From a virus: a stretch of 35,517 nt of DNA. Made by a program: the position numbers and the translations under genes. The notes under the pieces were generated by a model, which was not told the origin of the DNA, made no database searches, and saw only the letters and a program-made list of their open reading frames with translations. Of this stretch, positions 3,067 to 35,517 are shown piece after piece (the stretch's first letter is position 1; the number at the start of each line of letters is the position of its first letter). The stretch spans positions 1-35,517 of IMG/VR virus record IMGVR_UViG_3300030106_001997; one strand, 5' to 3'.

Positions 3067-3310
3067 GGCTAAAATTCATAAATAATACTTCATCGCCGGA
3101 TGAAGCTATACGTTCTCTAAATGGGTTATTATGCCTAAGTTCTTCCCTAAGTTCGGGGATACTCCACTGCCCCCCCTGGTCCACTCCAGTTGCCCCCCTG
3201 GTCCACTGTAGTTGCCCCCCTGGTCCACTGTAGTTCCGGGGTGAGGCATAGGAATGAGAGGCCACCCAAGACCTAATTGAAAAACCCCTCATTCCCGTAT
3301 CGCGGCTCAT
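3059..3310 (-). CDS. Doubtful hypothetical ORF between terminase genes
   Basis: An 83-codon frame starting with ATG at 3310 in an ATGA overlap with the small terminase stop, and ending 8 bases inside the large terminase gene. In favour is this coupled geometry and a plausible charged C-terminal half (SIPELREELRHNNPF). Against it, the middle is made of three 22-base tandem repeats, which are read in all three phases because 22 is not a multiple of three. I recognise no family. It could be a real fast-evolving gene or a non-coding spacer holding a packaging signal. Confidence 0.35.
   Translation of the reverse strand: MSRDTGMRGFSIRSWVASHSYASPRNYSGPGGQLQWTRGATGVDQGGQWSIPELREELRHNNPFRERIASSGDEVLFMNFSHE
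3171..3236. repeat. Three tandem 22-base C-rich repeats between terS and terL
   Basis: Three head-to-tail copies of a unit beginning CCCCCCTGG and continuing TCCACTGTAGTTG lie at 3171-3192, 3193-3214 and 3215-3236. Copy 1 differs from copy 2 at two bases and copy 3 at one; a partial copy (TCCACTGC) precedes them. The period is two helical turns. The placement between the terminase subunit genes makes a terminase recognition or pac-type role conceivable, but no family signature confirms it. Confidence 0.85.
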
Positions 3311-4321: not shown

Positions 4322-4823
4322 TGCGGATGCTCTGCATCTGCCGCTGGGTAATAGCGCGGTCTATTGCCACCAGCATCAATGTCCGCCGCTGGCACCGCCA
4401 CGCTATGGCATCGCGCATTTCCGCCCAGGCCGGAAACCACTCACAGGAATCCAAGAGGCTGTTTAAACCTTCCTCGACGGCATCTGCCGGGTACTGCCGC
4501 AATTTGTCTACATAACCGGCCAGCATCAGGTCCATGTGCGCGGCATCCAGATTGCGATGCTTCATCATCATCTGCATCTGCGCCAATAGCTGCACCAGCC
4601 GCCCTTCATCAGCGGGCTTAGTGGTCTGCAAGACGTAATCTCTGGCACGTTGTAAATCTGCCACGGTCATGTCAGCGGGTAGTTCGATGCCAACCAGATC
4701 GAACTCATTGGACAACTTTTCTTCGATCTTGAAACCGCTGTGCCGCTCCAATGATGTCACCGCGTCCCGGTCTAGGCTCAACGCGCTCTGCCGTGACTCC
4801 CTTGACTCGATTATCTGGTTCAT
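4314..4823 (-). CDS. Putative helicase loader-type replication protein
   Basis: 169 residues. The start at 4823 is supported by GAGAGGTGG a few bases upstream, even though it lies 119 bases inside the previous gene. There is no P-loop. The region of about residues 75-150 (LLAQMQMMMKHRN..., YVDKLRQYPADAVEEGLNSL..., WFPAWAEMRDAI) has the helical pattern of phage and DnaI/G39P-type helicase-loader N-domains: a Y-x-x-x-L-x-x-Y-P segment followed by W-F-P-x-x-x-E-x. The gene follows a DUF1376 replication protein, the same order as initiator and loader pairs in other phages. The role, delivering host DnaB to the origin, is inferred. Confidence 0.5.
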   Translation of the reverse strand: MNQIIESRESRQSALSLDRDAVTSLERHSGFKIEEKLSNEFDLVGIELPADMTVADLQRARDYVLQTTKPADEGRLVQLLAQMQMMMKHRNLDAAHMDLMLAGYVDKLRQYPADAVEEGLNSLLDSCEWFPAWAEMRDAIAWRCQRRTLMLVAIDRAITQRQMQSIRSA

Positions 4824-5463
4824 CTTGCCACCTCTCTTGGTTCAACCATGTCGCTGGGTGGCATGTGAAATCCGGGTCCGGGTTGTATCGGGCCAACCCA
4901 GCCATGATAATTCCGTGATCCACCTTTTTGATTGCCTTCTTGTACGCCTTGCGTGCTTCGCCCTTGGCAACACGCCGGGGATATTGCTTCCAAAATTCTT
5001 CAAACTTATCGGGGGGTTTATATAAAGATACGTTAGTATCTTTATCTATAGGTGTGGGTATGGGTGTGGGGGCATCCGTTTCGCATTGCTCCACAGATGC
5101 GTTCGCATTCTTGGTTTTCTTTGTTTTCCGTGACTTAGTGTAGTCCCTCTTGTGCGCGTTGGCTGAGTTTATCTTGGATCGGTTGACAACAAACGACCTC
5201 TCTTTAAGTAATCTTTTCTGCGTCCAGCAACCGTCCTCAAGCGTCCAAAACTCCATGACCGCATCCTTAACATTCTTCCATTGTCGCGGTCCCAGCCCTG
5301 CAAATCTTGCCAGCAACTTATCGTCATCAGGCAGATTACAATCAGGTCTTCGCCACGCCACCATCAGCAAAAGCAAATACGCGCCATGCTCCTGTGTAGA
5401 CAGATGCCGTGTGTCTGCGAGATACGCATCCGTCCACAGCGGCATACTTGGGTAACTAGCCAT
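4705..5463 (-). CDS. DUF1376 (YdaU-type) replication-associated protein
   Basis: 252 residues. The N-terminal 95 residues are a clear DUF1376 domain: YPSMPLWTDAYLADTRHLS, EHGAYLLLLMVAWRRPDCNLPDDD, LLARFAGLGPRQWKNV and DGCWTQKRLLKE. A lysine-rich linker follows (about 100-125), then a region resembling the C-terminus of phage replication proteins (KFEEFWKQYPRRVAKGEARKAYKKAIK, ending HPATWLNQERWQDE). Proteins of this type are found beside helicase loaders and are thought to act in replication initiation. The last 119 bases overlap the downstream loader-like gene in another frame. Start ATGGCTAG overlaps the upstream stop by 8 bases. Confidence 0.8.
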   Translation of the reverse strand: MASYPSMPLWTDAYLADTRHLSTQEHGAYLLLLMVAWRRPDCNLPDDDKLLARFAGLGPRQWKNVKDAVMEFWTLEDGCWTQKRLLKERSFVVNRSKINSANAHKRDYTKSRKTKKTKNANASVEQCETDAPTPIPTPIDKDTNVSLYKPPDKFEEFWKQYPRRVAKGEARKAYKKAIKKVDHGIIMAGLARYNPDPDFTCHPATWLNQERWQDEPDNRVKGVTAERVEPRPGRGDIIGAAQRFQDRRKVVQ

Positions 5464-7047: not shown

Positions 7048-7764
7048 TTAGCCTTGCGACGGCTGTTTAAACGCTGCCATTGTCGGCGGCGCTGACCGGC
7101 GCTTGTCGCGGCATTCTGATAGGGCCGCTATCGCTGCCGCTTTGCTGCTCTCAATGTCATGGCATTGGCTGGCGTCGGTGATAGCGCGTTCATTTACTAT
7201 GCGGACCTCGCCTGTTGTCGCGCTGACTTGATGAACAAACCAATGCGCTAAAGCATTAGCCTCAACTAGCCCCAACCCATCCCCTTCAATCCCATGCTTA
7301 CCTGTGTCGCTGGCAGCAGGAATCGGCTCCGCCGCCGCGATATCGTCTTCTATAATAGGTGCCGGATCATTTTTGTTGAGGTCGTCAATCAAATCATCTT
7401 GCGTTAATCGGCTGTCATATATGATCCGCCAAACCGCACCCATAACGTGACGCCATTTCGGGTGATCTCGATAAACTGACACTTTCTCTACATAGCCAAG
7501 GCGCTTTGCTTTAATAAGCATCCGCGCAACCGCGCCGCGATCAGTCCCGGCAACGTCAGCTATTGTCTGTTGATTGGGGTAAGCGAATCCCTGGTTATTC
7601 GCATACGCGCAAAGCATAGCGAATTGACGCAATTCACCCGGCGTGAATCCTTTTCCCTTCCCACGCGTTCCCTTGCTATCCCATATCACTCGCGTCGGAA
7701 TGCGCGTGTACAGCGATGGCGGCCCACCTTGTGCGGCCCCTATCACGGGTTCATTATCTGTCAT
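7048..7764 (-). CDS. Winged-helix replication initiator-like or regulatory protein
   Basis: 238 residues from ATG at 7764, preceded by TGAGTCAG, almost the same box as in the rightward early genes; a longer frame begins at 7827. Around residues 35-100 a helix-turn-helix region is evident: FTPGELRQFAMLCAYANNQGFAYPNQQTIADVAGTDRGAVARMLIKAKRLGYVEKV. This is the pattern of HTH_36-type replication proteins that open phage replication operons. The C-terminal half is low in recognisable motifs and acidic in the middle. As the first leftward gene it may initiate replication or regulate the divergent promoters. Confidence 0.65.
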   Translation of the reverse strand: MTDNEPVIGAAQGGPPSLYTRIPTRVIWDSKGTRGKGKGFTPGELRQFAMLCAYANNQGFAYPNQQTIADVAGTDRGAVARMLIKAKRLGYVEKVSVYRDHPKWRHVMGAVWRIIYDSRLTQDDLIDDLNKNDPAPIIEDDIAAAEPIPAASDTGKHGIEGDGLGLVEANALAHWFVHQVSATTGEVRIVNERAITDASQCHDIESSKAAAIAALSECRDKRRSAPPTMAAFKQPSQG

Positions 7765-7875
7765 AACTGACTCAACCGAATCATTTAGCCTATTGACACT
7801 TGGTAGCACATATGTCACAACACGCATACGAGATCATTTTACGATCTAAATGCACACTTAATAGGAGTCAGTATA
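7765..7875. promoter_or_regulatory. Divergent early control region
   Basis: The only place where leftward and rightward genes are back to back, so promoters for both should lie here. A perfect TTGACA hexamer (7793-7798, plus strand) is present, but no good -10 follows at standard spacing. Two inverted repeats are possible operators: AGATC-N7-GATCT at 7831-7847, and TGACA (7794-7798) facing TGTCA (about 7813-7817). Both gene starts carry the GAGTCAG box. Exact promoters cannot be fixed by eye. Confidence 0.5.
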
Positions 7876-11279: not shown

Positions 11280-12140
11280 ATGATGGCTAAACGGAAGCGA
11301 ACCCGCAGCAGCGGACCACCAGAACAGGCATTGGGCCTTGCGCGTGTGAGTACGGAAGAACAAGGCATCGACGGCCTGGGCATCCGGGCACAGAACGCAA
11401 CCATCCGCGCAAAGGCGGAAGAACTTGGGCTGGAACTGATCGAAATCTACAAGGAAGTCGAGTCAGGAACTAAGCCCGAAAGGCCGCAGCTTATCGCGGC
11501 CTTGGATGCAGCAGCGAAGTGTGATCCGCCCGGCGTTGTGATCGTTAGCGCCTTGACACGCCTGACGCGTAACTTTGACGTGATGTCCTACATCATGCGG
11601 AGAACGGAACGCGACGGCACTAAGCTGGTCGCGTGTGATATCCCAGAAATGTCGGACCCAAACCAGACACAATTCATCTGGCGGATCATGGCAGCGGTTG
11701 CGGAACTGGAAGTAAAGCGCATTCAAGCGCACACCAAAGACCGTTTAAACGTTGCCAAAACCGACCTTCAAGAGAAAGGGTATTATGACACCCGGCCTAA
11801 GAAGGATAAGCCCTCACGGCGGATTACACGCCTGGGCAATCCCAACGTGGAGAAGGCGGCACCGTTAGGTGGTGAAGCAATGAAGCGGAACACCCGCGCC
11901 TTTGCGCTGCGGACCTACCCGATAATCCAGAAGCTACAGAAAAAAGGCATCACGGGATTGCGTGCGCTGGCCCGCGAACTAAATAACCGCAACGGTCTTC
12001 ACGGTGAAGGCCGGGCAGTGTTGACTTATCAGGCACAACGGCAGCGGGAAAAGCTAGAGGACATCCGCGAGGAAGATTTGCCGCAATGGAGCGCTGAACA
12101 AGTCAAGCGGGTCATCGCCCAGGCAAAAAAGAAAAAATAA
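11280..12140 (+). CDS. Serine recombinase (resolvase/invertase family)
   Basis: 286 residues from ATG at 11280 (an ATGATG pair) after a GGGGG ribosome site. The N-terminal catalytic domain shows LGLARVSTEEQ with the nucleophile at Ser24, SALTRLTRN (the conserved S-x-L-x-R-x-x-R segment) and the long helix MAAVAELEVKRIQAHTKDRL. The C-terminal part is short and basic, ending QVKRVIAQAKKKK. It is much smaller than the large serine integrases of about 500 residues, so a resolvase, invertase or dimer-resolution role is more likely than integration. It sits just before the regulator and tyrosine integrase, so two unrelated site-specific recombinases are encoded side by side. It carries a GTTTAAAC site at 11743. 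Confidence 0.9.
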   Translation: MMAKRKRTRSSGPPEQALGLARVSTEEQGIDGLGIRAQNATIRAKAEELGLELIEIYKEVESGTKPERPQLIAALDAAAKCDPPGVVIVSALTRLTRNFDVMSYIMRRTERDGTKLVACDIPEMSDPNQTQFIWRIMAAVAELEVKRIQAHTKDRLNVAKTDLQEKGYYDTRPKKDKPSRRITRLGNPNVEKAAPLGGEAMKRNTRAFALRTYPIIQKLQKKGITGLRALARELNNRNGLHGEGRAVLTYQAQRQREKLEDIREEDLPQWSAEQVKRVIAQAKKKK

Positions 12141-12152
12141 TCCACAACCGAA

Positions 12153-12189
12153 ATGGTTTTTTACCACATCGAGAATGGTTTTTTACCAC
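12153..12189. promoter_or_regulatory. Operator pair upstream of the regulator gene
   Basis: Two identical 15-base sites, ATGGTTTTTTACCAC, at 12153-12167 and 12175-12189, spaced 22 bases (two DNA turns). Each is an inverted repeat TGGT-N5-ACCA. They lie just before the ribosome site and start (12207) of the MarR-like gene. The same site recurs inverted after that gene. Confidence 0.75.
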
Positions 12190-12206
12190 TCTTTTGGAGC
12201 AAAAAA

Positions 12207-12698
12207 ATGTTCAAGTTTAAAGCAATCGCAGAATCAAAACATCCCCGGACACGCGAATTTTCTGATGCGATGAGGCAGGGAGCGGTTCTGCATTTTACGA
12301 AATTCATTGACAGTTTCCAAAAACGGATTGGCGATTCGAGAAAATTTCCGGCGTTGAATTTTTTCCGCACAAGTTTGGCGCGGAGAGGATTGCTCTACAG
12401 CATTATGAAGGCGTACTGGACTGGCGAACAATTGAACGTCACTGCGGAGTGCAATGCGAAGGGCATAGATTATTCCAACGCTATGCGGACAATCAAATCG
12501 GCACAAGAAGCCGGTTTTCTTGATAAAGATTTGCGCCCAACCAAACAGCTTGAGGATGAATTTCATGCGGGCGTTATGGCTGTCCTCACGGACATCAATT
12601 TGCTGCACCTTGCACGATCTCTAGTAGGGTCGAACATGATGGCGAACATGACTCAGGCGGTCGAAGAAGCGGACAAAAAAAGTGGTAAAAAACCATAG
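12207..12698 (+). CDS. MarR-like winged-helix transcriptional regulator
   Basis: 163 residues from ATG at 12207, preceded by GGAG at 12196-12199. The frame extends to 12153, but that start falls inside an operator. Residues of about 65-115 resemble a winged helix: a first helix LLYSIMKAYWTGEQLNVT, a recognition-type helix around GIDYSNAMRTIKSAQEAGFLDK, then DLRPTKQLEDEF. This is the arrangement seen in MarR proteins (helix, recognition helix, G-F/L-hydrophobic, wing, then T-x-x-L). A basic N-terminus precedes it. Two operator pairs flank the gene, so it probably represses itself and the integrase; this is inference. It lacks the typical Cro/cI helix-turn-helix. Confidence 0.65.
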   Translation: MFKFKAIAESKHPRTREFSDAMRQGAVLHFTKFIDSFQKRIGDSRKFPALNFFRTSLARRGLLYSIMKAYWTGEQLNVTAECNAKGIDYSNAMRTIKSAQEAGFLDKDLRPTKQLEDEFHAGVMAVLTDINLLHLARSLVGSNMMANMTQAVEEADKKSGKKP

Positions 12699-12719
12699 TC
12701 GAATATGGGAATTTACCAT
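12682..12719. promoter_or_regulatory. Operator pair upstream of integrase
   Basis: GTGGTAAAAAACCAT at 12682-12696 is the exact reverse complement of the two sites in front of the regulator. A weaker copy, ATGGGAATTTACCAT (11 of 15 matching), lies at 12705-12719, 23 bases on. The pair overlaps the end of the regulator gene and precedes the integrase start at 12760, so the integrase is likely controlled by the same protein. Confidence 0.7.
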
Positions 12720-12759
12720 TTGGCGCACGCAAAACGAACGCAGTAAGGTCACAAATGAC

Positions 12760-13782
12760 ATGAGCTATAAAAATCTCAAACGGACAAAAGACGGCAAAAT
12801 CTATCTGCGGCCTACAGCCGCCCAAGCTCGACAAGGCAAGAAACTGATTCGGCTCTGGGCAGAAGAAGGCACAGAAACTTTCCGAAAGGAATATGACGAA
12901 GCCGTTGTTCTAATGAACGCGGGCATCAAGAAGCAAAGCGCCCACACACTAAACTGGTTGGTTATGATCTATCTACGAAGTCCAGAGTTTCAACGGCTAG
13001 GCGACAGCACCAAGAAAGTGCGCGAAAAATTACTGGCGCACGCTACGCTGCTGCATGGCACAAAGCCGTTTAAACAAATCCGCGTGAAGGATATGCGTGT
13101 GCTGCGCGACTCGATGGCGCACAAGCCAGAGGCAGCGAACGCACGCATCAAGGCCATGCGTCAAGTCTACAAGTGGGCGATAGCGTGTGACCTGTCGGAG
13201 ATCAACCCAGCGGCGAACGTGCCGTACCTTAAACCCAACAACCCGGACGGGTTTTACACTTGGAGCGAAGCTGACATTCAGCAATTCGAGGCCCGGCATG
13301 TCATGGGCAGCAAAGCACGGCTGGCGCAAGGGTTACTCATCTATACAGGCGTGCGCCGATCTGACGTTGTGCGATTAGGCCCGCCCATGGAGTCGAATGG
13401 TATCCTAGAATTTACGGAATCGAAGAACCGCGCTAATGCACCAAAGGAGCGCAGGATTCCGATTTTGCCGCCACTGCGAGAAATTATTGCGGCAACCAAA
13501 ACTGGCCCATTTGTGTACCTGATCACACAGACAGGCCAAGCGTACACTTCTAACGGTTTTGGTAACTGGTTTAAGCGGCGGTGCAAGGAAGCGGGTTTGC
13601 CGCAATGCTCCGCGCACGGGCTACGCAAGGCTGGCGCGGTACGCGCAGCTATGGCGGGCGCAACCACACGGCAGCTTATGGCTATGTTTGGATGGGAGTC
13701 AGCGAAACAAGCGGAACGCTATACCATGAAGGCAGAGCGTGACCGCTTGGCGATGGAAAATATGCACTTGTTAATCAAATGA
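12760..13782 (+). CDS. int: Tyrosine-family site-specific integrase
   Basis: 340 residues from ATG at 12760; the frame is open from 12682, but that GTG lies in an operator and within the regulator gene. An N-terminal SAM-like binding region spans about residues 45-150. The catalytic set is visible: Arg199 in YTGVRRSDVVRLG, His286 and Arg289 in SAHGLRKAGA, and the nucleophile Tyr321 in ESAKQAERYTMK, with the MFGW helix before it. This is the integrase layout common in alphaproteobacterial prophages. A candidate attP follows about 80 bases downstream. It should catalyse insertion into, and with a directionality factor excision from, the host chromosome. AAGG lies 11 bases before the start. Confidence 0.95.
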   Translation: MSYKNLKRTKDGKIYLRPTAAQARQGKKLIRLWAEEGTETFRKEYDEAVVLMNAGIKKQSAHTLNWLVMIYLRSPEFQRLGDSTKKVREKLLAHATLLHGTKPFKQIRVKDMRVLRDSMAHKPEAANARIKAMRQVYKWAIACDLSEINPAANVPYLKPNNPDGFYTWSEADIQQFEARHVMGSKARLAQGLLIYTGVRRSDVVRLGPPMESNGILEFTESKNRANAPKERRIPILPPLREIIAATKTGPFVYLITQTGQAYTSNGFGNWFKRRCKEAGLPQCSAHGLRKAGAVRAAMAGATTRQLMAMFGWESAKQAERYTMKAERDRLAMENMHLLIK

Positions 13783-13811: not shown

Positions 13812-13965
13812 GAAGACAACCCAAGACGCTGAAGTCTTATAAAACAACGCCTTGAAAGGGTGGTGGTGCCCAGGGGCGTACTCGCTTAGTAGTTTAAAAA
13901 CAATGACTTAACTACAGGCGGGACAAAAACAAGACAGAAGCGTCTTCAACACAGGAGTGAAGACG
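13812..13965. other. attP: Candidate attP region with tRNA-like core and arm sites
   Basis: The core TGGTGCCCAGGGGCG (13864-13878) equals the reverse complement of a tRNA 3' end with its CCA (…CTGGGCACCA), of the alphaproteobacterial tRNA-Phe type as I recall it. Around it are six copies of AAGAC in either direction (starting near 13813, 13823, 13834, 13931, 13942 and 13960), five of them preceded by G or C, as expected for integrase arm sites. An inverted repeat GTAGTT (13889-13894) / AACTAC (13910-13915) lies beside the core. Confidence 0.6.
13941..13965 (+). promoter_or_regulatory. Perfect hairpin enclosing a ribosome-binding site
   Basis: CGTCTTCA (13941-13948) pairs with TGAAGACG (13958-13965), and AGGAG, the ribosome site for the small ORF at 13966, is in the 9-base loop. 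It could modulate translation of the recombination operon, or it could simply be a pair of integrase arm sites. Confidence 0.45.
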
Positions 13966-15522: not shown

Positions 15523-16325
15523 ACCAATCAGAACAGCTTGATAAGTTTGGCGCGGCGTTCGTAGCTGCCCAGGCGAACATGACAAACCCACACAAGAACG
15601 CTGACAACCCATTCCACAAGTCGAAGTACGCTTCACTTGAGGAATGCAACAAGCAAGCACACCAAGCACTGAACGCCCACGACATTGGCATCATTCAAGG
15701 CGTGCATGATAACAAGCTGCGAACCACGTTGATCCACAAATCCGGTCAGTGGATTTGTGATGAGGGTGTGCCGTTGGACGGCATCGAAAACGCCAAGAAC
15801 AAAATGCAAGCAGCGGGCAGCGCAATCACATACGCTAGAAGATACGGCGTGTGTGCTATGGTTGGGCTGGCGCAAACGGACGATGACGGAAACGCACTCA
15901 ATGATCCACCTTTGCGTCCAAAGCGTCCCAAGGCTAAACCATCTGGTAAGGATTTGGACGCTGCCTTCCCCGCAAACGGTGGTCAGAAGGCCGACACTGA
16001 TGCGTCTGGGGCCAAGGGTCCAGAAAAGGCAGATGCTTCTCCTGGGGCGTCTGACAGCAATACAGACGATGTTCTTATTATGATCTCACCAGATGGCAAG
16101 AATACCAAGGAATTTGGTTCCAGCTATGATTTTGTTGAGGCGTTTATGAGCCAGCTAGAACGGATGAAAGCTGATGTGAAGCTAAGTCCAGAGGATAGGA
16201 TGTCTGGTATGCGTGGTTTCGCAGAGCACAATGAGCCGACCATGGACTTGCTGCCAGAGGCCGCAGCACAAACCCTGCATGACGAAATCATACGTTTAAA
16301 CGATGAACTGGGAGCAATCAAATGA
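15519..16325 (+). CDS. erf: ERF-family single-strand annealing protein
   Basis: 268 residues. The ERF signature is clear in the first 135: NPFHKSKYASLEECNKQAHQALNAHDIGI, LRTTLIHKSGQWI, and AAGSAITYARRYGVCAMVGLAQTDDDGNA. This corresponds to the P22 Erf/ERF superfamily that anneals complementary single strands and forms rings. A low-complexity Lys/Asp/Ser linker follows (about 135-190), then a helical C-terminal domain. It works with the exonuclease upstream in recombination and probably genome circularisation. Coupled by 4-base overlaps. Confidence 0.9.
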   Translation: MNQSEQLDKFGAAFVAAQANMTNPHKNADNPFHKSKYASLEECNKQAHQALNAHDIGIIQGVHDNKLRTTLIHKSGQWICDEGVPLDGIENAKNKMQAAGSAITYARRYGVCAMVGLAQTDDDGNALNDPPLRPKRPKAKPSGKDLDAAFPANGGQKADTDASGAKGPEKADASPGASDSNTDDVLIMISPDGKNTKEFGSSYDFVEAFMSQLERMKADVKLSPEDRMSGMRGFAEHNEPTMDLLPEAAAQTLHDEIIRLNDELGAIK

Positions 16326-16558
16326 GTATACCAATGGGCATCACGCCGAAACAGATGTCGCTCCGCATGGCGATTGATGAGTTTATACAGGCGCATGGCT
16401 ACTCGCCTAGCGTTGCAGAGTTGGCGTCCATCCAAGGCACATGCAAATCTAACATTGTGCGGATGATGAATGACTTGGTGGATCGCGGCCACATCACACG
16501 CGAACACGGCAAACCGCGTAGCGTTTTGGTCGTACCTGTTAACACAAAGGAGAACTAG
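16322..16558 (+). CDS. LexA-type winged-helix DNA-binding protein
   Basis: 78 residues: MGITPKQMSLRMAIDEFIQAHGYSPSVAELA...GTCKSNIVRMMNDLVDRGHITREHGKPRSVLVV. This is the LexA N-domain pattern (Q-x-x-x-L-x-F-I-x-x-x-x-x-x-x-G-Y-x-P-S-x-x-E-I, then a recognition helix and wing) without the autoproteolytic domain. Likely a small transcription regulator of the recombination or lysogeny genes. Coupled by ATGA to erf. Confidence 0.75.
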   Translation: MSIPMGITPKQMSLRMAIDEFIQAHGYSPSVAELASIQGTCKSNIVRMMNDLVDRGHITREHGKPRSVLVVPVNTKEN

Positions 16559-16773: not shown

Positions 16774-17124
16774 ACTGGATCGAGCGAAGGCTCCTGATCC
16801 AATGTTGTAGGCGAGTGAGCAACAGGCGCTAAACTGGTTTTCGTTTAAACGCGTTTTGACAACGCGGTTAATTGTGTTTTCAACATGGCGCACTTCTCGC
16901 TTGAGGAGATGTTCGCCTTGCTCCTTCGTAATGCGAGGGTGGTGAAGGGTGACAGGATTGCCCTCATCATCCCAACAGCTACCCCATCCGATTGTTGGTC
17001 TTGCCGCAGCACAGAGGTATGGCTCTGATCGCCATCCCTCGAACTTCTTGATGATGTTCAGACCGGCTTGATTGCAGTGACCGTCCCATGCGTGCGCTGC
17101 CAGCAATGAGTCGTGCAGACTCAT
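16639..17124 (-). CDS. GH24 lysozyme-type endolysin
   Basis: 161 residues from ATG at 17124, in an ATGA overlap with the holin stop. A GH24 (T4-type) muramidase: Glu29 in FEGWRSEPY, Cys38 in YLCAAARP where T4 has Asp, and Thr44 in PTIGWGS, keeping the E-(9)-D/C-(6)-T spacing. The Cys in place of Asp is known from R21-like lysozymes. FSACCSLAYNIGSGAF and the terminal GLVIRRQHERALFLL are also typical. There is no signal or SAR anchor, so it must pass through the holin hole to cut peptidoglycan. The end of the gene is antisense to a small plus-strand gene. Confidence 0.9.
   Translation of the reverse strand: MSLHDSLLAAHAWDGHCNQAGLNIIKKFEGWRSEPYLCAAARPTIGWGSCWDDEGNPVTLHHPRITKEQGEHLLKREVRHVENTINRVVKTRLNENQFSACCSLAYNIGSGAFARSSLKMKLSRNDFEGAADEFPKWRRAGGRILKGLVIRRQHERALFLL
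16776..16801 (+). terminator. Hairpin just after the rightward operon
   Basis: TGGATC (16776-16781) pairs with GATCCA (16796-16801), and GAGC/GCTC pair inside around a GAAG loop with a two-base bulge. It starts three bases after the last rightward stop, but no T run follows. It may end rightward transcripts inside the convergent lysozyme gene. Confidence 0.35.
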
Positions 17125-17567
17125 GTCTGTGTCTTCCGCGCATAGGTACGGCTCCCGAACCAAAAAGAAACAACAGCCGCCCAAACGGCCTGGAACTCAT
17201 CGTTCCAAATCATATTATATTGAGCGGCGGTCATCCAATCCATGCTAACGCATAGGGTCAACACGCCGAACTCAATCGCAAGCAAATAGGTCAAAACCGG
17301 CCTGACACTCGCAGCCATATTGACAACCCAAGGACTAGCCTTGCTCTGCAAGCGCGACGAATGTTTCATCAACGCCTCGCCTTCGCGGATGTCCGCCTCG
17401 ACGTGCATGTGCTGTAGTTTAATTTCACCCAAGGCTTTTTGCTGATCGATTTGCTTTTCCATCAGCCTGAGTTCGTGGGCTTTGTCGGATTTGTCTTGAA
17501 AGTAATCCATCACTTTGGGAAGGAACGATGTGCCAAACCCCATCAGTGAACCAAGCAAAGATAACAT
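17121..17567 (-). CDS. Holin, GTA-type three-transmembrane family
   Basis: 148 residues from ATG at 17567 with AAGGAG upstream. An N-terminal hydrophobic segment (MLSLLGSLMGFGTSFLPKVMDYF) is followed by a charged helical linker (about 25-75). Two further membrane spans follow: VRPVLTYLLAIEFGVLTLCVS and FQAVWAAVVSFWFGSRTY. This fits the family 'holin of 3TMs, for gene-transfer release' found with alphaproteobacterial phages and gene transfer agents. It would open the inner membrane for the lysozyme encoded next, coupled by ATGA. Confidence 0.8.
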   Translation of the reverse strand: MLSLLGSLMGFGTSFLPKVMDYFQDKSDKAHELRLMEKQIDQQKALGEIKLQHMHVEADIREGEALMKHSSRLQSKASPWVVNMAASVRPVLTYLLAIEFGVLTLCVSMDWMTAAQYNMIWNDEFQAVWAAVVSFWFGSRTYARKTQT

Positions 17568-17568
17568 T

Positions 17569-17766
17569 CTAAATCTCCTTTCCTGGCTTGCTAAAATGCA
17601 CGGTGGTACACAGCGCTGCCCAGTGTTTAAACGCACCCAGCTTTTGGTGGTGATTGTAGTATTCTTCTGTGATGTCTTGTGGCGGACATGCACTCACCGG
17701 CATAGCGGTAACATCGTGCGCTCCGTCATTGGTGATAATGAAGACGACTAGCACTAACAGTTTCAT
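17569..17766 (-). CDS. Small secreted protein of lysis cassette, possible outer spanin
   Basis: 65 residues. A hydrophobic start MKLLVLVVFIITND followed by a possible lipobox VSAC (Cys27), then a polar segment PPQDITEEYYNHHQ. Position between a membrane-anchored coiled-coil protein and the holin, with an ATGA overlap, matches an outer-membrane spanin or Rz1-like lipoprotein. The stretch between hydrophobic core and Cys is longer and more polar than usual, so this is tentative. Confidence 0.5.
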   Translation of the reverse strand: MKLLVLVVFIITNDGAHDVTAMPVSACPPQDITEEYYNHHQKLGAFKHWAALCTTVHFSKPGKEI

Positions 17767-18666: not shown

Positions 18667-19668
18667 TTATGCCCAACGCAAGACCACGCCGCTTACGCGA
18701 ATCTCTTTATTATTGTGAGTCGTCACTTTGTATTTCATGCTGGTGCCAGAAGGCTGGCTACTTATGTCAACACTTCCTTCATAATTAATAAAATTGCTAT
18801 TTGTCGCACCGGCAGCGAGCGTCACCTCGCTATAATTGCTTCCCCCATCTCGCGAAATGAAAGCCTTCAAGTCGGTATTTACCGTCACCGAATCGACCGG
18901 GTCAGCTTGCACAGTAATGAAACCTGTCGATGGTGCGCTGGATGCCGTGAGCGCATTACTTATTAACGTCATGTTGTCTGTGGTCAGTTGCCGATAGAAT
19001 CGAACCCAAAGAATAGCTGTGTAGGTGCTTCCAGAGTACGCAGTTAAATTTAGTCGCCAATAACGGTGTGCTCCAGCACTGGAAAACGATTGATAGTAAT
19101 CGGCGCTTTGCGTGAAATTAAATGTTGCGGCGTCGGTCCAACTACTGCCGTTATCTGAGTGTTGCCATGATCCCGTTCGCGTTCCTGAGTAGCCGCCGTA
19201 TTGAAAGCCAGCTTTAATTATGTCCTGTTCATTCCCAGAACCAAAGTCAACTTGTAAAGTCCAAGCGCCAGTATTTGAGCCATTGCCAAGGGCCTCAGGA
19301 TTACGGTTCGTTGTCCCACCACTAAGCATGGCTGATGCCGTAGCCCATGTGGTACTGTCATCGGACACAAGGTCTTCAGCGTCGGGATTATGATAGTAAT
19401 CATCATCCGCCGAATAAGTTGCGTTGGTTTTTGTCGCTAATGTATCGCTATCGAACGGGTCAGCCGCACCATTGTTGAAGTTGAGCGCAGCACCTTTAAC
19501 ATCACTAACCTCAAGCGCCAGCGCCCTTATATCTTTGTCAGCGGGTAGACCAGATGTCTTAGCAGAAGTGACTGCCGCCGCCGCAATCTTCGATGTCGTG
19601 ATAGCCAAGTCATCGATGTGGGAGCTACCGACCAATCCACGGGCTGGGGATGATCCTAAATATGGCAT
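18667..19668 (-). CDS. Tail fibre/receptor-binding protein with discoidin-like domain
   Basis: 333 residues from ATG at 19668 (GGAG about 8 bases upstream). The N-terminus MPYLGSSPARGLVGSSHIDD... resembles that of the other fibre protein (MPFLGSQPAEAALSTGHLGDD at 20779), suggesting a shared attachment module. Residues of about 120-220 (GAWTLQVDFGSGNEQDIIKAG, SWQHSDNGSSWTDAATF, RYWRLNLTAYSG) look like a discoidin/F5-8 type C carbohydrate-binding domain. Ser/Thr/Gly-rich beta repeats follow. It likely binds host surface sugars. Confidence 0.75.
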   Translation of the reverse strand: MPYLGSSPARGLVGSSHIDDLAITTSKIAAAAVTSAKTSGLPADKDIRALALEVSDVKGAALNFNNGAADPFDSDTLATKTNATYSADDDYYHNPDAEDLVSDDSTTWATASAMLSGGTTNRNPEALGNGSNTGAWTLQVDFGSGNEQDIIKAGFQYGGYSGTRTGSWQHSDNGSSWTDAATFNFTQSADYYQSFSSAGAHRYWRLNLTAYSGSTYTAILWVRFYRQLTTDNMTLISNALTASSAPSTGFITVQADPVDSVTVNTDLKAFISRDGGSNYSEVTLAAGATNSNFINYEGSVDISSQPSGTSMKYKVTTHNNKEIRVSGVVLRWA

Positions 19669-19673
19669 ATCAA

Positions 19674-20015
19674 TTACTCCGGTTTTACGGGCCACGGATC
19701 GGACACGCCGTCCTTGCCTTGCTCAAATTCATTCCATTGGTTCTGAAAAGCCACAGGGTCCGACGTGTTTGCCGGTAAATCACGCAACGCAACGCGATAC
19801 GTTTTCATGTTGTCAGCAAGCGTCAAATCCGACAGAGCAAAATAATCTGTTTCAAAAAGACGACGATTGCGTTCTTCCCTAATTTTTTGCCAAGCACGAT
19901 CTGCCGCACCTTTCGCCCACTCCTCTTCCTGTGTAACGCAAGCGTCTATTTCTGACTCAGTGAGATCAACGCGCTCACCGTTGACTGTCCTGTGGGTATA
20001 GTCTGAACGTGCCAT
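19674..20015 (-). CDS. Tail fibre assembly chaperone-like protein
   Basis: 113 residues from ATG at 20015 (MARSDYTHRTVNGERV); a longer frame to 20123 lies inside the fibre gene. Residues of about 45-113 (REERNRRLFETDYFALSDLTLADNMKTYRVALRDLPAN... ending DPWPVKPE) match the short tail-fibre chaperone/XkdW-type pattern R-N-x-x-L-x-x-x-D, Y-R-x-A-L-R-D-L, W-P-x-K-P. It lies between two fibre genes and probably helps them fold. Confidence 0.75.
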   Translation of the reverse strand: MARSDYTHRTVNGERVDLTESEIDACVTQEEEWAKGAADRAWQKIREERNRRLFETDYFALSDLTLADNMKTYRVALRDLPANTSDPVAFQNQWNEFEQGKDGVSDPWPVKPE

Positions 20016-34364: not shown

Positions 34365-35517
34365 TTAAACAGGTTGTTCCGGCGCGGCTTGCTCTGGCGA
34401 AGCTTGTCCCGCTGGAGCTTGCTGCATCATCTGCATCATCTGTTGTTCGACTTCTTGCCGTTCTTCGTCACTGGTCCGCAGACTTGTCGGCACGCCCAGC
34501 TTGTCGGCAACATAGTCGGCAACCGCATCTGCTTTGATCGTGCTTTGCGCTATCGGGCCAAGGCTCGAACTGATTTGCGCCCATTGCATGGCATCTTGGA
34601 TGTCATCGAGATGTTGGGCTTTGGCTAACGGGCTAACCGGGACGACACGCACCTCTAACCCGTTTACTCGCAACGGTAATGCAATCAAGCCCGCCTCGTT
34701 CATAATATACATTGACCGGCGAACTAGCGGCACCATGGTTTCCGTTATCAATCTGCCAAAAGCTGACCCCAGGTTTGTTGCAAGTTCACGCATCCGCTCT
34801 ACGATTTCCGTAGCGCTGCGGGCGCTCATGTTGTCAGGCGGCAACGAGTCATCAAGAAGCGTGCGCTTAATGTTCATGCGTAAATCTTGCAAGACGATTT
34901 GTGTAAGCTGTAAATCCCCGGCACGTTGCAACGGTTGTAAGGATGCGCCCCGCGCACCGCCGTTTGACGCCACAGGAATGACGGCACCGGGCACAATACG
35001 AATCGTTTGCGGGTTGAGGACGCCATCGTCTACGGCTGTGTAAACGCCGCTAATGTTTAGGCTGGCATTTTTGAGCAACAACTCCACAGCTTTGTTCAAC
35101 GTCAATATGTCGCCAAGCGCAGAAACAACCGGGCCTCTGCCCATGACCTCACCGGCAACTTTACTAAACCGGCTCACAATCCACGGTGATATTGTCAGTT
35201 CACGGTAGACCAACATCGACGTTTCGTTGTCGCTGGTCTTGTAACAAACGTAATATCCATATCCGCCATCATTGACGTTGAGGATTGTCGACTCTTGCAA
35301 GTTCACCATTTCTTGCGGTGCGTCTACGATCTTTCTTTCGAGAACAGCGGGCAGTTTTGCGTCAGGCCAAATCACTTTGATGTTTTCCGCTGCAACACGC
35401 ATTTTGCGGTAAACGTTTTCAACAGTGCCTTGCGGGCCTTCCTCAAGCGCTACGAGGTATTGAGGAATTGACTGAAACCGTATCGGCTGCAAGTCATCGC
35501 CGGGTTGCACAAGCATA
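34365..35517 (-). CDS. Portal protein, C-terminal part
   Basis: 384 codons continuing from the fragment at 791-1, through the circle junction. PQYLVALEEGPQGTVENVYRKMR, YVCYKTSDNETSMLVYRELT, VVSALGDILTLNKAVELLLKNAS and NMSARSATEIVERMRELATNLG are typical of the T7-like portal crown and wing. The C-terminus is Gln/Met/Pro-rich (EQQMMQMMQQAPAG). The stop codon TAA (34367-34365) lies in a GTTTAAAC site. The downstream 40-residue gene starts 15 bases later. Confidence 0.9.
   Translation of the reverse strand, partial: MLVQPGDDLQPIRFQSIPQYLVALEEGPQGTVENVYRKMRVAAENIKVIWPDAKLPAVLERKIVDAPQEMVNLQESTILNVNDGGYGYYVCYKTSDNETSMLVYRELTISPWIVSRFSKVAGEVMGRGPVVSALGDILTLNKAVELLLKNASLNISGVYTAVDDGVLNPQTIRIVPGAVIPVASNGGARGASLQPLQRAGDLQLTQIVLQDLRMNIKRTLLDDSLPPDNMSARSATEIVERMRELATNLGSAFGRLITETMVPLVRRSMYIMNEAGLIALPLRVNGLEVRVVPVSPLAKAQHLDDIQDAMQWAQISSSLGPIAQSTIKADAVADYVADKLGVPTSLRTSDEERQEVEQQMMQMMQQAPAGQASPEQAAPEQPV
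35140..35517. repeat. Diverged terminal overlap, right copy
   Basis: The right copy of the 378-base overlap described at 1-378. The two copies are collinear, so joining them closes the genome into a circle of about 35139 bases. The 20 differences mean that the ends were not read from identical molecules. Confidence 0.9.

Follow-up and report, generated by a model that had tools for sequence, protein, structure and literature searches.

What does a short gene do for its virus when it is bracketed by pairs of palindrome-type sites and lies directly before an integrase gene? This question is raised by one locus of the window, by which we mean the whole stretch of 35,517 nucleotides that was analysed and which is a whole IMG/VR viral record, from a marine phage. 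Matches to phage families were found for its terminase and for its head, connector and tail proteins. By terminase, the closest isolate is MEP301, a phage of Methylophilales (67%); tail protein B has further matches in HTVC010P and other pelagiphages. A reading made from the sequence alone (the sequence-only reading) had proposed a MarR-like protein and paired sites at both promoters, which together would form a lysogeny switch in place of a cI/Cro pair. The features of the locus are:

11283 to 12140, plus strand: serine recombinase (resolvase family, by family matches), upstream flank, outside the unit
12138 to 12722, plus strand: whole exchangeable unit of 585 bp (regulator gene and both site pairs), delimited by identity shifts at its edges and by its absence in the sister phage L132
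12138 to 12152, plus strand: left-edge motif TAATCCACAACCGAA, DnaA-box-like or -35-like, its first three bases being the resolvase stop codon
12153 to 12167, plus strand: site 1, palindrome-type ATGGTTTTTTACCAC, exact copy
12175 to 12189, plus strand: site 2, ATGGTTTTTTACCAC, exact copy, 22 bp from site 1
12207 to 12698, plus strand: P0001 gene, 163 aa, with a Shine-Dalgarno GGAG at about 12194
12682 to 12696, minus strand: site 3, exact reverse complement of ATGGTTTTTTACCAC, overlapping the last P0001 codons (..GKKP-stop)
12706 to 12718, plus strand: site 4, degenerate TGGGAATTTACCA, 23 bp from site 3
12760 to 13782, plus strand: tyrosine integrase (by family matches), downstream flank, outside the unit
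13863 to 13878, plus strand: putative attP core GTGGTGCCCAGGGGCG, about 1.1 kb from the sites, kept after the integrase in 8 of 8 phages compared

The three exact 15-mers and the degenerate fourth copy were confirmed around the gene as the sequence-only reading had placed them. The spacing is 22 bp in the left pair and 23 bp in the right pair, and sites 1 and 2 are inverted relative to site 3. None of 100 sequences generated from the window with a third-order Markov model had any 15-mer in three exact copies within 600 bp, and apart from these sites the window shows this only at a 22-bp tandem repeat near 3170. When one mismatch is allowed, the loose form TGGT-N5-ACCA was found 15 times in the window with 12 expected, which is not above chance, so the significance of the sites rests on the exact copies and on their conservation. 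Searched alone, the exact 15-mer matches more than 100 viral contigs, mostly by chance; a search by the pair of sites returned only two carriers of the gene and two contigs without it. Outside the cassette, neither the window nor any of the four other carrier genomes gave a further match to TGGTTTTTTACCA with at most one mismatch.

There are also other repeats in the window. The palindrome GTTTAAAC is found 18 times with 0.6 copies expected (positions 1521, 4461, 7065, 8498, 10087, 11743, 13068, 14141, 15453, 16294, 16843, 17625, 23185, 23443, 27247, 30389, 33854 and 34363), and elsewhere 17 times in the sister phage G001, once in G004 and not at all in MEP301, G005 and G006. Its sites are kept in 15 of 15 cases in L131/L132 (background 41-44%) and in 6 of 9 cases in L133/L136 (background 17-19%); they look functional because they are conserved above background. 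The repeat near 3170 consists of three tandem 22-bp copies containing AGTGGACCAGGGGGG (3170-3230), about 100 bp upstream of the start of the minus-strand terminase large subunit, and is a possible packaging or terminase-binding site. The two ends of the record (1-378 and 35140-35517) form a 378-bp direct repeat with 94.7% identity, which would reflect either an imperfect terminal redundancy or the assembly of a strain mix. An Rfam search gave no match.

P0001 has no match in Pfam, NCBIfam or PADLOC and none in PHROG at E 0.01 or better, so that neither a MarR model of Pfam, NCBIfam or PHROG nor a Rep family of Pfam or NCBIfam is among its matches. Its relatives have no PHROG MarR match, a sequence search against solved structures found no match, and defence-gene models gave no match. 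Two AlphaFold models of moderate confidence (pLDDT 66 and 67) have a winged helix with long terminal helices, and the structures that they matched are mostly MarR proteins. The best match of the first model is a domain of T4 MotA (Z 6.8) with MarR proteins tied at 6.5-6.6, and that of the second model is SlyA with a Z of 7.6, still below 8, and a rmsd of 5.5 over 122 residues. The MarR-like predicted fold spans residues 11-158. As in the MarR-family repressors SlyA, TcaR and MarR, it covers nearly the whole chain, and the palindromic sites beside the gene suggest a dimeric autoregulator. Unlike these repressors, P0001 has no detectable sequence membership and is an orphan phage family in only five other viral records. 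The earlier MarR-like label is supported by the predicted fold and has no sequence-family match behind it; P0001 is predicted to be MarR-like by fold, rather than being an established MarR member.

Within the gene, codons 118-129 and most codons up to 137 (12558-12617) are invariant in the window, L004 and L098, including the synonymous positions (permutation p 0.00065). This invariance does not extend to L131. The stretch contains the hairpin-like GTCCTCACGGAC, and either recent recombination or a hidden DNA or RNA element may account for it.

The five other viral records with the gene represent four phages, which are L131 (G001), L004 (G004), L098/L127 (G005) and L129 (G006, with the identical record L130). 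With the window itself, only five distinct carriers are known, and all were compared: the window, L004, L098, L131 and L129. Two further degenerate scans of IMG/VR gave no records beyond the same five. No relatives of P0001 were found in GenBank phages, plasmids and 84,980 prokaryote genomes; the genome-scan negatives are weak because the query stretches vary among the carriers (L131 breaks both).

Comparison of these genomes brought out the structure of the unit, the swap of its alleles, its absence in a sister, its three contexts and the conservation and confinement of its sites. In the near-identical sister L131, the P0001 allele lies in the same place and is 61% identical, whereas the other proteins are, almost without exception, 87-99.6% identical; in the DNA alignment, identity falls from about 88-96% outside the unit to about 65% inside. 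In the more distant G004, P0001 is 80% identical and the adjacent recombinase and integrase are 51-59% identical, and DNA identity rises from about 55% outside the unit to about 80% inside. P0001 is thus the outlier of the protein-by-protein comparisons in opposite directions. With L098, whose P0001 is 84% identical, the window has only two other stretches in common, and in L127/L098, otherwise unrelated to the window, the unit is an 83% identical DNA block. The P0001 of L129 is 57% identical, and nothing else is in common with the window. Moreover, the cassette has a GC content of 45-48% against 51-55% in the host genomes and is AT-richer than every host. Because the identity edges are sharp, P0001 is an outlier both ways and nearly or entirely the sole shared gene in G005 and G006, and the unit is AT-richer, we conclude from these alignments that a block of about 585 bp is exchanged horizontally between phages. 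The two other stretches shared with G005 are parts of the genes 17121-17693 and 18667-19695 (44% and 84% identity) and may be a further sign of exchange.

The conserved TWATYCACA motif (12138-12146) belongs to the unit at its left edge, and TWATYCACARSCRAA was found in all five carriers, including L098, although L098 has no upstream resolvase. L132, a second sister which was found like L131 through its integrase, has the integrase and lacks the unit; the left motif and one degenerate site remain in this partial record of 11.7 kb. Its CACAGGC left motif matches the units of L004 and L098, which would favour loss of the unit over its never having been gained.

All five carriers have sites at both ends of the unit with a spacing of 22-23 bp and variable spacer bases. 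In L004 and L098, which have the same site type as the window, all four sites recur, and site 4 has the same sequence in L004, L098 and L131. A symmetric weight matrix was built from the sites of the window, L004 and L098, with L129 left out. In L129, its top three hits in 7.9 kb are positions 1388, 1908 and 1931, at the unit ends, and in L131 the right pair gives the top two hits. The left sites of L131 deviate, being longer by one base, and in L129 the first left site is weak. The counterpart of site 3 in L129 lies downstream of the stop codon and outside the reading frame, so the conservation of site 3 is no coding effect. The sequence-only reading had named the absence of the sites from relatives that keep the gene as what would speak against it; they are present in all such relatives, and the paired, phased sites at both gene ends are real and retained by each relative that retains the gene. 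The sites appear to be kept by selection at the DNA level and to travel with the gene, as would be expected if P0001 binds them.

The surroundings of the unit differ between the carriers. In the window the order is serine recombinase, P0001, tyrosine integrase and then RecE/YqaJ-like and Erf-like genes, with P0001 and the integrase co-directional; in MEP301 the recombinase is directly followed by YqaJ and Erf. The gene after the unit is the integrase in the window, L004 and L131, and the gene order of L004 is that of the window. In L098 the unit is flanked by a divergent cI-like gene on one side and a Cro-like HTH gene on the other, and in L129 by an integrase and an HTH+S24 repressor. The right pair is therefore not specific in facing the integrase, since what follows the unit is a Cro-like gene in L098 and a repressor in L129, and the unit is also absent from the integrase-bearing L132. 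Among integrase relatives at a greater distance, L134 and L135 have another family of orphan proteins in this slot (L134:1118-1866 and L135:1872-2570); the two proteins are 36% identical to each other and show no detectable relation to P0001. They are followed by tandem repeats of 13 and 18 bp, which lie immediately ahead of the integrase gene. In L133, the integrase is preceded by another kind of palindrome pair with a spacing of 33 bp (25-76). From these contents, the pre-integrase position seems to host alternative regulator-plus-site sets, which is a lead only. Another regulator candidate in the window is a 78-aa LexA-N-terminal-like winged-helix protein (16322-16558), which is kept in L131, L132, L133, L136, L134 and L004.

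The proposal that P0001 is a stand-alone MarR-like repressor which maintains lysogeny and replaces cI/Cro as the switch of this phage is improbable in our judgement. No HTH_3 or S24 repressor was found at the profile level in the window, G001 and G004, so the window has no such repressor opposed to Cro at divergent promoters; the regulator lies directly before the integrase, and MEP301 has neither the cassette nor an annotated integrase. However, the sites are confined to the cassette, which leaves no operators at the lytic operon, the carriers L098 and L129 have cI-type genes beside the unit, the partial L132 record keeps the integrase without the cassette, and the LexA-type gene at 16322 is an alternative candidate. 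What stands of the proposal is that the window lineage has no detectable cI. A shade less probable again is a mobile DNA element with the site pairs as terminal repeats on which P0001 or another recombinase would act. Block movement with conserved ends, the inversion of sites 1 and 2 relative to site 3 and the left motif and degenerate site in the gene-free L132 agree with it. Several results speak against an insertion sequence or transposon: no transposase or recombinase family or fold was found for P0001, a single 163-aa MarR-like predicted protein, each of the three contexts is a lysogeny module, target duplication was not seen, and the search found no left-end pairs that carry other such cargo. 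Furthermore, homologous recombination in the flanks or the conserved ends accounts for the block exchange.

That P0001 is a recombination directionality factor (RDF, excisionase) and the sites are part of an attachment site is quite unlikely. Like the Apl/Cox/Xis-type factors, it is predicted to be a winged-helix protein, and it is encoded close to a tyrosine integrase gene and to repeated sites; an integrase gene adjoins the unit in four of the five carriers, winged-helix RDFs exist according to PMC11963761, and in some distant integrase relatives, read by eye, a small HTH gene appears to occupy that position. For RDFs, the sites are direct repeats about one turn (10-11 bp) apart at att (PMC7498355), whereas the sites here are palindromic and 22-23 bp apart. 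The putative attP core, whose reverse complement looks like the 3' end of a putative tRNA, lies 1.1 kb downstream; this distance and the geometry of the sites speak against an excisionase. Moreover, 163 aa is long for an RDF, and L132 lacks P0001. Least probable, and very unlikely, is a replication origin at which P0001 would be the initiator that binds 22-bp iterons beside a DnaA-box-like motif. The left edge does offer TWATYCACA, which is a perfect TTATCCACA in L098, and two sites 22 bp apart, but the motif varies in L129, there are only two repeats per side, P0001 matches no Rep family of the kind that goes with an iteron array, and L132 lacks the gene. The window also encodes other replication-initiation-type proteins (7048-7827 and 4705-5463), and its GC skew does not change sign at 12.1-12.7 kb.

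The reading that we prefer and consider probable, judging from the sequence comparisons, is a horizontally exchanged, self-regulating repressor-plus-operator cassette which would also control the next lysogeny gene. P0001, as a predicted MarR-like dimer, would bind each palindrome-type site, with two dimers two helical turns apart at each gene end. Bound at the left pair, it would control and repress its own expression, and bound at the right pair it would control transcription that reaches the gene downstream. In all known carriers, that gene belongs to lysogeny, being an integrase, a Cro-like gene or a repressor of cI/LexA type. We infer the dimers, their binding, the repression and the effect on the downstream gene. 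On the coding strand of the window, L004 and L129, no sigma-70-like promoter was found by a scan which assumes E. coli-like promoters; in L098, the E. coli-like model gave promoter candidates, one of them overlapping the left end of the unit. Because no sigma-70-like promoter stands out in most carriers, though such scans are weak evidence, the cassette may act as a repressor or roadblock on transcription that reads through from outside; this would account for its ability to sit in different surroundings. P0001 is likely a lysogeny-associated regulator, its role as the sole lysogeny switch is unproven, and its control is inessential to this integrase lineage, since L132 keeps the integrase without the gene.

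The exchange of a repressor together with its operators is a classical route by which temperate phages change immunity. As in the immunity regions of heteroimmune phages (lambda/434, Cluster A mycobacteriophages), regulator and sites diverge together here and are swapped as a block between otherwise near-identical phages (the window against L131 and L132), which suggests a specificity change of the immunity-region type. In contrast to these regions, the sites bracket the regulator gene and are confined there, no operator at a lytic promoter was found, and the unit also adjoins cI-type genes in unrelated phages. The stoperators of mycobacteriophage L5 are similar in being repressor sites away from promoters which could block elongation. 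They number 20-30, are asymmetric and dispersed, and are each bound by a monomer (PMC6550527), whereas here there are four palindrome-type paired sites in one place.

As a tentative possibility, the unit may be a portable control valve, in which an orphan MarR-like repressor has its gene bracketed by its own paired operators; such a promoterless block would fit different lysogeny modules, regulate itself, take over the next gene and be swapped as a specificity cassette. The block is tiny and self-contained, has no recognised family and turns up in lysogeny modules of three architectures, among them those of phages with a cI-type repressor of their own. If the unit does control any gene that follows it, it would be a regulatory part that is portable by nature, and uncultured aquatic phages would be seen to build their lysogeny control by plugging in small modules.
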